A stretch of DNA of 64,000 bases from Thermosulfurimonas marina. Lineage in GTDB: Bacteria > Desulfobacterota > Thermodesulfobacteria > Thermodesulfobacteriales > Thermodesulfobacteriaceae. A program made the position numbers and the translations under genes. How positions within the stretch are numbered: position 1 is the stretch's first letter; each line of letters starts with the position of its first letter. The notes below the pieces were generated by a model that saw nothing but the letters and a program-made list of their open reading frames with translations, had not been told where the DNA came from and searched no databases. The stretch covers positions 1,178,001 to 1,242,000 of the forward strand of contig NZ_CP042909.1 of NCBI RefSeq assembly GCF_012317585.1, given 5' to 3'. Positions 11,841-15,053 of this stretch are shown here, one piece after another.

Positions 11841-11870
11841 TTGACAGAAAGCCCCCCCGGATACTATAAT
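11841..11870 (+). promoter_or_regulatory. Strong consensus sigma-70 promoter of katG
   Basis: TTGACA (11841-11846) and TATAAT (11865-11870) are both exact consensus hexamers, 18 bp apart, with katG starting 38 bases later behind AAAGGAGG. An imperfect AT-rich block follows the -10 (TATAATCACTTTTAAATTA). It overlaps the region where PerR/Fur-type repressors often bind, but I cannot align a full operator to it. Confidence 0.75.
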
Positions 11871-11908: not shown

Positions 11909-14071
11909 ATGAAAAAGAAGGTCCGGAAGAGGTGGATTACGGACTGGTGGCCTAATAGGCTCAACCTCAAGGTCTTGCGACAGAACAGCCCCGAGGTCAA
12001 TCCCTATGGCCCGGATTTCGACTATGCCAAAGAGGTCCAGGGACTGGATGTGGAGGCGGTAAAGGAGGACCTCAAGGCCCTAATGAAGACCTCTCAGGAC
12101 TGGTGGCCCGCAGATTTTGGGCACTACGGTCCGCTTTTCATTCGCCTGGCCTGGCATAGCGCCGGAAGTTACCGCATTTACGATGGCCGGGGAGGGGCCC
12201 GGGAGGGCAGCCTCCGCTTTCCTCCCCGGATCAACTGGCCGGACAATATTGGACTGGACAAGGCCCTCCGTCTCCTCTGGCCCATCAAGAAGAAGTACGG
12301 CCGGAAACTTTCCTGGGCGGATCTTATTATTCTGGCCGGAACGGTGGCCCTGGAGGACATGGGGGTCAAGATCTTAGGATTTGCCCTAGGCCGAGAGGAT
12401 ATCTACGAGCCGGACGAAAGCCCGGACTGGGGCCCGGAAGAGGAAATGCTCACCAGTCACCGGGGGCAAGGAGGAAAGCTCGAAAGGCCCTATGCGGCCA
12501 CGGAAATGGGCCTGATTTACGTAAATCCCGAGGGCCCGGGAGGCAATCCCGATCCTGTGGGCTCGGCCAAGGAGATCCGGGTGGCCTTTTATCGTATGGG
12601 GATGGACGACGAGGAGACCGTAGCCCTCATTGCCGGAGGGCACGCCTTCGGAAAGTGTCACGGCGCCGGACCGGGAAAGTATCTAGGGCCGGATCCCAGT
12701 TCCTCCCCCATCGAAGAGCAAGGCCTGGGCTGGAAGTACGGCTATCGCAGCGGCAAGGGGCCAGATACCTATACTTCCGGCTTTGAGGTCATCTGGTCCC
12801 CCACTCCTACTAAATTCGGGATCCAGTATCTCCACCTACTTTTCAAGCACGATTGGGAACTGGAAAAGAGCCCGGACGGCAAGCACCAGTGGGTGGCCAA
12901 GGACGCCCCGGAGATCGTCCCCGACCCTTATGATCCCCAAAAGAAACACAAGCCCCGGATGCTCACCGCAGACCTGGCTCTAAAATTCGACCCTGCCTAT
13001 AGCAAGATCGCCAAGCGCTTTCTGGAAAACCCCGAAGAGTTCGAAAAGGCCTTTGCCCGGGCCTGGTATAAGCTTACTCACCGGGATATGGGGCCCAAGC
13101 GGTATTATCTGGGGCCTTATGTGCCGCAAGAGGAATTTATCTGGCAGGATCCCCTTCCTCCCCGAGATTTTGAACCGCCGGAGGAAGCAGAGCTTGAGGA
13201 ACTCAAAAGGCGGCTTCTTGAGACCGGTCTGGGGATAGCCCGCATGGTCTATACGGCCTGGGCCTCGGCTTCCACTTACCGGCATTCGGATCGGCGGGGC
13301 GGGGCCAACGGGGCCCGGATCCGCTTCTATCCCTTGAACCGCTGGGAGGTCAACCATCCGGAGGACCTGAAGGAAGTCCTGGCCGCTTACGAAAAGATTC
13401 AGCAGGCCTTTAACCAGGAGCAGGAAAGGAAGGGCTCCCCGCGCCGGGTCTCCTTCGCAGACCTTATCGTCCTGGGGGGCTGTGCCGCGGTAGAGGAGGC
13501 CGCCCGCCAGGCAGGTTTCGAGGTGAAGGTCCCCTTTAAGCCCGGAAGGGTGGACGCCCGGGAGGACCAGATCGAGGTAGCCTTCTACCGCGAGATAGAA
13601 CCTTTCGCCGAGGGCTTCCGCAATTACTTCCGCGACCCTTCCCGGATCGACGAAGGCTGTGTTTTCACCACCCCTGAGTATTTCCTGGTGGATCGGGCCC
13701 AGCTTCTGAGGCTCACCGTGCCGGAGATGGTGGTCCTGGTGGGCGGATTGCGGGCCCTGGGGGCTACCTATCGCTATCAAGGGTACGGCGTGCTTACCGA
13801 GCGTCCCGGGGTGCTCACCAACGACTTTTTCGTAAACCTCCTGGACATGGGGGTGGAATGGAAGCCCGCGGACGACTACCGCTACCTCTTCAAGGGCTAT
13901 GACCGTAAGACCGGAGAGGCCCGGTGGAGGGCCACCCGGGTGGACCTCATCTTCGGTCACCATGACGAATTGCGGGCCGTGGCCGAGGTCTATGCCGCCG
14001 ACGACGCCCGAGAAAAATTTGTGCGCGATTTTGTGGCTGCCTGGTCCAAGGTCATGCACCTGGACTTCTAG
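11909..14071 (+). CDS. katG: Bifunctional catalase-peroxidase
   Basis: This 720-residue protein is the full two-domain KatG. The active N-terminal domain has distal R79, W82 and H83 ([10 protein letters not shown]) and proximal H245 ([10 protein letters not shown]). The Met-Tyr-Trp adduct residues needed for catalase activity are all present: W82, Y204 in [10 protein letters not shown] and M230 in YRMGMDDEE. The C-terminal domain is the usual heme-free duplicate. It degrades H2O2 in the cytoplasm. The N-terminus MKKKVRKRW has no cleavable signal. It sits behind a consensus promoter. An AhpD-like peroxidase gene begins 56 bp downstream, giving a small peroxide-defence locus, unusual but known in anaerobes exposed to oxygen. 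Confidence 0.97.
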
Positions 14072-14107
14072 GTTATCGAGCCCCCCTCTTTTGGAGTAGA
14101 ATATGGG

Positions 14108-14126
14108 AAAATCCCGAAGGAGGGGG
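14108..14126 (+). repeat. Leader repeat, copy 1 (before the selenoprotein gene)
   Basis: These 19 bases (AAAATCCCGAAGGAGGGGG) are identical to 14750-14768, before the CBM48 gene, and include the ribosome binding site. The similarity extends upstream through GGAGTAGAATA (14093-14103), against GGAGTAAAATA (14733-14743), which contains the presumed -10 boxes. In this copy GGGA-AAA-TCCC could fold into a small hairpin next to the ribosome site. Confidence 0.6.
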
Positions 14127-14127
14127 C

Positions 14128-14685
14128 ATGTCTTATTTCCTTGAAGTGGTGGAACCGGAAAACGCCCAAGGTCAACTGAGAAAGGTTTATCAAAGGCTCA
14201 AGGGGATGTTTGGTCTGGTTCCCAAGGTCTTCATCGCCCAGAGTTTGAGGCCGGATCTCCTTGAACCTTTGGTGGAATATGTGGACCGCCTCCTGATAAA
14301 GGAAGGGGCCTTGCCAAGGGGGACAAAAGAACTTATCGCGGCCTATGTTTCCAAACTTAACGCCTGTGAGTACTGACTGGATGCCCATAGCGCCATGGCC
14401 ATGGCGCAGGGTTATACTCTGGAGGAAATTCAGAATATCCTGGAAGATATAGAAGGAACTCCTTTCCTCGACCAGAAGACCAAACTCCTTTTACGCCTGG
14501 CCGAACGGGTTACCCGTGAACCTTACAAAATTCACCAGAAATTCATTCAGGGGCTTCGGGAACACGGGTTGAAAGACGAGGAGATATTCGAGGCTATTGC
14601 GGTGGGGGCTTTTTTTAATTTTATGACTCGGATGGCCGATGCCCTTGGGGCCCCGGTAGAGGGTTTTACCTCCACCGGATCCTAG
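14128..14685 (+). CDS. AhpD/CMD-family peroxidase-related selenoprotein (in-frame TGA read as Sec)
   Basis: Two open frames, 14128-14373 and 14377-14685, are in the same frame and separated only by TGA at 14374-14376. Read as selenocysteine (U), they give one 185-residue AhpD-like protein whose core reads KLNACEYULDAHSAM. In the AhpD/carboxymuconolactone decarboxylase family this site is CxxCxxxH, where the second Cys, near the His, is the peroxidatic residue. Here it is U83, with C80 as resolving partner and H87. Upstream helices (LVPKVF, RGTKELIAAYVS) and the downstream repeat half (LTREP, GAFFNFMTRMADALG) are normal for the peroxidase-related subfamily. A perfect stem-loop follows the TGA at the spacing of a bacterial SECIS. 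It lies 56 bp after katG. A nonsense mutation is the alternative, but hairpin and motif position argue against it. Confidence 0.85.
14390..14407 (+). promoter_or_regulatory. Putative bacterial SECIS hairpin
   Basis: GCGCCAT-GGCC-ATGGCGC forms a perfect 7-bp stem with a GG-containing four-base loop. It begins 13 bases after the TGA, with the apical loop about 20 bases after it. A lower stem is possible between ATGCCC (14381-14386) and the GGGTTAT starting at 14409, with small bulges. Stem size, loop Gs and spacing resemble the SelB-binding upper hairpin of E. coli fdhF. The element is inside coding sequence, as expected in bacteria. Confidence 0.75.
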
Positions 14686-14714
14686 ACCCTCCCAGGGATC
14701 TCGGATAGGGTGGC

Positions 14715-14743
14715 TTGGGCCGTCCTTTCCTTAGGAGTAAAAT
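14715..14743 (+). promoter_or_regulatory. Putative promoter of the CBM48 gene
   Basis: TTGGGC (14715-14720) and TAAAAT (14738-14743) are separated by 17 bp, 28 bases before the ATG. The -10 to ribosome-site stretch closely matches that of the upstream selenoprotein gene (see the leader repeat). Confidence 0.5.
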
Positions 14744-14749
14744 AACCAA

Positions 14750-14768
14750 AAAATCCCGAAGGAGGGGG
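14750..14768 (+). repeat. Leader repeat, copy 2 (before the CBM48 gene)
   Basis: This is the second copy of the 19-base leader containing GGAGGGGG. It lies three bases before the ATG at 14772 and is identical to 14108-14126. Two neighbouring but unrelated coding sequences therefore share a leader, which suggests local duplication of the control region or a common post-transcriptional signal. Confidence 0.6.
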
Positions 14769-14771
14769 GGT

Positions 14772-15053
14772 ATGCTCCAGAAGAAAAGCAAAGGCGGAAG
14801 ATGCTGGGTGACCTTTACGCTCAAGGCCAGTGAAGGTGAGGAAGCCTTTGTGGTGGGAGAGTGGAATAACTGGAAACCTCAGAAGATGCGCCGCAAAAAG
14901 GACGGAACTTTTTGGTTTGCCCGGGCCTTTCCTGTAGGCAAGACCTACCGTTTCCGCTATCTTCTCGGAAACGGGTGTTGGCTAAATGACGAGGCGGCCG
15001 ACGGCTATTGCCCCAATCCCTTTGGGAGTGAAGACTGCGTGCTCCAGACTTAG
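14772..15053 (+). CDS. Stand-alone CBM48 (glycogen-binding / isoamylase N-terminal) domain protein
   Basis: This 93-residue protein is essentially one early-set beta-sandwich, with VTFTLKA, VVGEWNNWKP and KTYRFRYLL. The GEWNNW motif and the terminal GCWLNDEAADGYCPNPFG segment are typical of CBM48/AMPK-beta glycogen-binding modules. In starch-processing enzymes this module holds the glucan; here it stands alone, so it may tether a partner enzyme or sense glycogen. ATG 14772 lies three bases after GGAGGGGG; an upstream in-frame start at 14715 would add a basic, unrelated stretch. It runs toward the glycogen cluster and overlaps malQ by 4 bp on the other strand. Confidence 0.85.
   Translation: MLQKKSKGGRCWVTFTLKASEGEEAFVVGEWNNWKPQKMRRKKDGTFWFARAFPVGKTYRFRYLLGNGCWLNDEAADGYCPNPFGSEDCVLQT

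Follow-up and report, generated by a model that had tools for sequence, protein, structure and literature searches.

The window analyzed here, a 64-kb stretch of Thermosulfurimonas marina DNA that belongs to a closed 1.76-Mb genome, contains a catalase-peroxidase gene (katG) followed by an ahpD-like gene whose reading frame includes a TGA codon with a hairpin-forming palindrome behind it (Table 1). When the TGA is taken as a residue, translation of positions 14128-14685 yields a single frame of 185 residues, and this codon (number 83, in the context ...NACEY-U-LDAHSAM...) is the only interruption. The initial annotation had described frame, TGA and palindrome as a probable selenoprotein gene, and on re-reading the sequence we found its coordinates and distances exact to the base, including the 56 bp that separate the end of katG (14071) from the ATG at 14128. 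Scanning the 64-kb window by codon usage for TGA codons with coding sequence before and after them in the same frame picked up three places. Only the ahpD-like gene also has a SECIS-like stem and homology that extends through the TGA; the other two look like neighboring genes that share one frame.

Table 1. Features of the katG/ahpD-like locus (positions are those of the window).
Feature	Position	Strand	Basis or remark
Consensus sigma-70-like promoter of katG (TTGACA, 18 nt, TATAAT, 12/12)	11841..11870	+	sequence
katG, catalase-peroxidase, upstream neighbor	11909..14071	+	TIGR00198, 1235 bits
Strong Shine-Dalgarno-type stretch AGGAGGGGG before ATG 14128	14118..14126	+	sequence
ahpD-like selenoprotein gene, 185 residues, predicted Sec at residue 83	14128..14685	+	stop TAG 14683-14685
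In-frame TGA, putative selenocysteine codon (CxxU)	14374..14376	+	Cys/TGA column in homologs; kept in the G192 ortholog
Extended SECIS-like hairpin with lower stem	14386..14411 (limits approximate)	+	fold
Perfect 18-nt palindrome GCGCCATGGCCATGGCGC, apical stem-loop of the putative bacterial SECIS	14390..14407	+	fold, geometry

A 19-nt leader, AAAATCCCGAAGGAGGGGG, stands in identical form before the ahpD-like gene (14108-14126) and before the next gene (14750-14768; ATG at 14773), the product of which weakly resembles a glycogen-binding/CBM48 domain. No further copy of the leader was found in the genome with up to two mismatches allowed, and the repeat may stem from duplication of the 5' leader or point to control common to both genes.

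The predicted product matches the TIGR01926 model ("peroxidase-related enzyme") with 113.7 bits against a cut-off of 81.8 and additionally matches Pfam CMD (72.4 bits) and the AhpD core model TIGR00778. An AlphaFold2 model with U83 replaced by Cys (mean pLDDT 92.6) shows one compact all-helical domain that spans the TGA, with residue 83 inside a helix formed by residues 81-93, and its best matches among solved structures are the same-length AhpD-like peroxidase-related proteins 6k40 (TM 0.85) and 2prr (TM 0.84). The classical AhpD model whose members have AhpC as partner (TIGR00777) gave only 24.4 bits against a cut-off of 191.95. There is also no ahpC beside the gene; the genome's one match to the C-terminal domain of 1-Cys peroxiredoxins is found at 1437372, at a distance of about 245 kb.

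The AhpD-like debrominase Bmp8 resembles the model as well (TM about 0.8), which means that the fold by itself is compatible with more than one reaction. The product may thus be a selenoprotein that is not a peroxidase, e.g., a Bmp8-like reductase or dehalogenase or an adaptor in disulfide or metalloid redox reactions, a reading that we consider quite possible though not the favored one. It would agree with the weak peroxidase activity of AhpD-like proteins such as PA0269 (PMC3141380) and with the surroundings of the only close ortholog, which we recovered from a genome of another family (G192; 65-66% identical) after searching 395 genomes in the phylum. This ortholog is flanked by genes for an FMN reductase and a flavodoxin, with a divergent Crp-type regulator and a nitroreductase nearby, and neither katG among the scanned neighbors nor any association with ahpC was found at its locus. 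However, it is a single case, the window gene itself adjoins katG, and the E-CxYC-H relay of its product agrees with the peroxidase-active type of AhpD.

The initial annotation had gone further and proposed a peroxide defense pair of a selenoprotein and a heme enzyme, for which adjacency to katG was the sole basis. This linkage is conserved neither at the G192 locus nor within the order, where none of the other katG genes that we recovered (some of them cut by contig ends) lies beside an ahpD match. A functional link to KatG is possible from adjacency, but as a conserved unit the pair is not supported. The closest relatives of the katG gene (78-84%) are found outside the genus. The ahpD-like gene is absent from the five other genomes of the same genus that we examined, an ahpD-like Sec gene was found in one genome of the order, whose size and gene content point to a probably thermophilic sulfur bacterium, and the eight genomes of G192's family contain no second close ortholog. 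The close group has two known members, the window gene and its G192 ortholog, and a contig scan with the protein query alone returned only five distant relatives of 27-30% identity. Horizontal transfer would be the simplest reading of this distribution.

The genome encodes the machinery for selenocysteine that the selenoprotein reading calls for, i.e., a tRNA-Sec (anticodon TCA, 83.9 bits), selA and selB as well as a selD with a score over the cut-off. This selD (L018 1489-2535) is likely a selenoprotein gene itself because a TGA interrupts its own frame where Sec is usual in SelD (KAAG-U-AAKL) and a 9-bp SECIS-like stem stands behind this codon, with a loop that starts 20 nt after the TGA as in the ahpD-like gene. 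The genome of the close ortholog also encodes selA, but almost every genome tested has this gene, including those with Cys forms of the protein, and its presence is therefore not discriminating. One genome that is reported complete (G227) has a TGA-bearing AhpD-like homolog (L089) and no selA over the cut-off, for which contamination, an assembly gap or a relic are alternative explanations.

At L001 268-1596 (G000:C1 1437291-1440382), an ORF that contains two CxxCH heme motifs and, named by inspection, resembles MauG/cytochrome c peroxidase has the tRNA-Sec gene directly downstream of it. This MauG-like ORF is itself placed after the genome's one match to the peroxiredoxin C-terminal domain, and an ORF that by inspection looks like a transposase is found on the other side of the tRNA-Sec gene.

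The palindrome GCGCCATGGCCATGGCGC begins 13 nt past the TGA and folds into a 7-bp stem with a GGCC loop at a TGA-to-loop distance of 20 nt; positions 14384-14412 fold with -15.3 kcal/mol (z = -2.2). An Rfam search over positions 14000-14800 with E-values up to 10 returned no SECIS family and chance matches only, and we therefore judged the hairpin by a published geometric model of bacterial SECIS elements (PMC13188914), counting stem scores of at least 6 as meeting this model. The hairpin lies inside the published limits. The same stem score is reached at 49 of the 1,288 TGA triplets on both strands of the window, and 14 of these 1,288 match both stem score and fold energy. Among 20,000 synonymous recodings of the peptide, 458 (2.3%) attain the stem score and 301 (1.5%) attain score and energy together. 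By itself, the hairpin is therefore a 1-4% event and only moderately unusual. A much stronger test comes from the homologs, where a stem that fits the model follows 16 of 18 TGA codons versus one of 32 Cys codons (P about 9e-8, which is indicative given that the rows are related and not independent).

The same homologs bear on the identity of residue 83. Among the 48 with long matches, the codon at this column is TGA in 18 and encodes Cys in 29, and about 50 homologs, with a single exception, have either Cys or TGA there, as would be expected of the Sec/Cys alternation that the initial annotation had suggested. One further candidate for an internal TGA (L023) was rejected, its codon at this column being TGT. 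In an alignment of 21 sequences (A1), no variation was seen at C80, C/U83 and H87, and conservation of E68 is at least 90%. Four changes are needed to place the Sec and Cys labels on the tree, in which the window gene and its G192 ortholog form a separate branch (support 100/99).

Some genomes show further variation on the Sec form. In the genome G069, at least four AhpD-like homologs (L046, L084, L085 and L100) have TGA at this position, which amounts to an expansion of Sec forms. One of these (L100; SPYU..R) and a homolog from another genome (L092 of G153; CPFU..N) are divergent and lack parts of the CxxU-xxx-H motif, such that Sec is retained where the resolving Cys or the His is not.

Whether the TGA is a functional codon or a lesion can be judged from the G192 ortholog. 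It has its TGA at the same codon as the window gene, with 56 of 82 residues identical before it and 62 of 97 after it. Both halves of the gene are under purifying selection, with pN of 0.24 before and 0.21 after the TGA against pS of 0.77 and 0.85, i.e., synonymous sites are saturated. The stem arms of the hairpin are identical in the two genes (GCGCCAT..ATGGCGC), while the loop differs (GGCC in the window, GGTG in G192). The initial annotation had named decayed 3' halves in close homologs as evidence against its reading, and the half behind the TGA is undecayed in this ortholog.

We therefore reject the view that the TGA is a sequencing error or arose recently by nonsense mutation from TGC or TGT in an ahpD gene that used to be of the Cys type. 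The absence of the gene from the five other genomes of the genus is what a decaying acquired gene might show, but the TGA and the frame downstream of it have been kept in an ortholog of another family with 66% identity until silent sites were saturated, which neither a nonsense mutation nor an error can explain; many further homologs have TGA at the same column and the genome has complete Sec machinery, so that a pseudogene is highly improbable. Equally implausible, and likewise rejected on the G192 ortholog, are two separate proteins with the TGA as a true stop (with the 3' half translated from a separate start, or with function residing in the first 82 residues alone), for which in-frame ATG codons are available past the TGA in the SAMAM stretch, but which would split the active-site pair C80/83 over two chains and cut a single compact domain within a helix, whereas the Cys homologs are continuous and, on inspection of the sequence, the internal ATGs are not directly preceded by a Shine-Dalgarno-type stretch.

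The locus is thus best explained by an intact gene that encodes a single-domain AhpD-like selenoprotein of the CMD superfamily (TIGR01926), in which UGA would be read as Sec through tRNA-Sec, SelB and the hairpin at 14386-14411. We hold this reading with high confidence on the combined sequence evidence, and the selenoprotein proposed by the initial annotation is borne out by the machinery, the Sec/Cys column, the G192 ortholog and the hairpin geometry alike. Because of the hairpin, SelB would deliver Sec-tRNA at the UGA, and Sec at residue 83 would complete an active site C80-x-x-U83-x-x-x-H87 with E68 standing where AhpD has the Glu of its proton relay. Most likely, the protein is a thiol/selenol oxidoreductase. 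Aided by E68 and H87, the selenol of U83 would attack a peroxide, a disulfide-type or a related substrate; C80 would then resolve U83 as a selenenylsulfide, which a cellular reductant, possibly thiol-, lipoyl-, thioredoxin- or flavin-linked, may reopen.

Automatic annotation that lacks a Sec-aware model would probably report this gene as frameshifted or truncated and miss the active site, and none of the NCBIfam (seleno)protein models scores over its cut-off for the window protein. The gene would add one more user of Sec on the peroxide/thiol side of anaerobe physiology, and the set of Sec and Cys forms assembled here (18 versus 32) is a clean one for testing what selenium contributes to an AhpD-like enzyme. 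It leaves existing knowledge of the AhpD-like family unchanged and, while useful for annotation, will not surprise a specialist.

Among characterized relatives, the proton relay of Mycobacterium tuberculosis AhpD comprises Glu118, Cys130, Cys133 and His137, and its mechanism requires both cysteines (PMC3141380); the second of them may or may not be the peroxidatic residue that the initial annotation had named. The spacing of these residues (Glu-12-Cys-x-x-Cys-3-His) equals that of E68, C80, U83 and H87 in the window protein, though the two proteins differ in chain topology and His132 of the mycobacterial enzyme corresponds to Tyr82, as in PA0269 (PMC3141380). The solved structures 6k40 (from D. 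radiodurans), 2prr, 2oyo and 3c1l share length, fold (TM 0.79-0.85) and the CxxC/U-H motif with the window protein, but are only 25-30% identical to it and have Cys in place of its predicted Sec. Two NCBI-named (seleno)protein families, NF041238 (AhpD_rel_CFYUT) and NF053654 (YciW-related), likewise have an AhpD-like core with CxxU, but the window protein falls well below their cut-offs with 60 bits against 175 and 41.7 bits against 310, respectively.

The closest known system is the AhpD-like CxxU selenoprotein family, which the initial annotation had rightly called an established class. An AhpD-like protein (COG2128/TIGR01926) with this motif has been a predicted selenoprotein since 2005, with 27 sequences from the Sargasso Sea (PMC1088965); the family ("AhpD-like 1") has 299 sequences in GOS (PMC2398784) and is listed in Table 1 of PMC13188914. 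With it, the window gene has in common a TIGR01926 score over the cut-off, CxxU with the TGA at the second Cys of CxxC, the existence of Cys homologs, a hairpin of SECIS-like geometry past the TGA and a predicted redox function, all in a genome with Sec machinery. We tentatively considered that the window gene and its G192 ortholog form a distinct, Sec-only AhpD-like lineage with its own substrate, fed by flavodoxin/FMN reductase instead of lipoamide/AhpC and exchanged between anaerobes independently of katG, but regard this as rather unlikely. As judged from sequence, the window gene is a new, divergent member of a selenoprotein family that earlier work had predicted in other bacteria, and together with its G192 ortholog it occupies a branch of its own at about 28-31% identity to the other Sec members.
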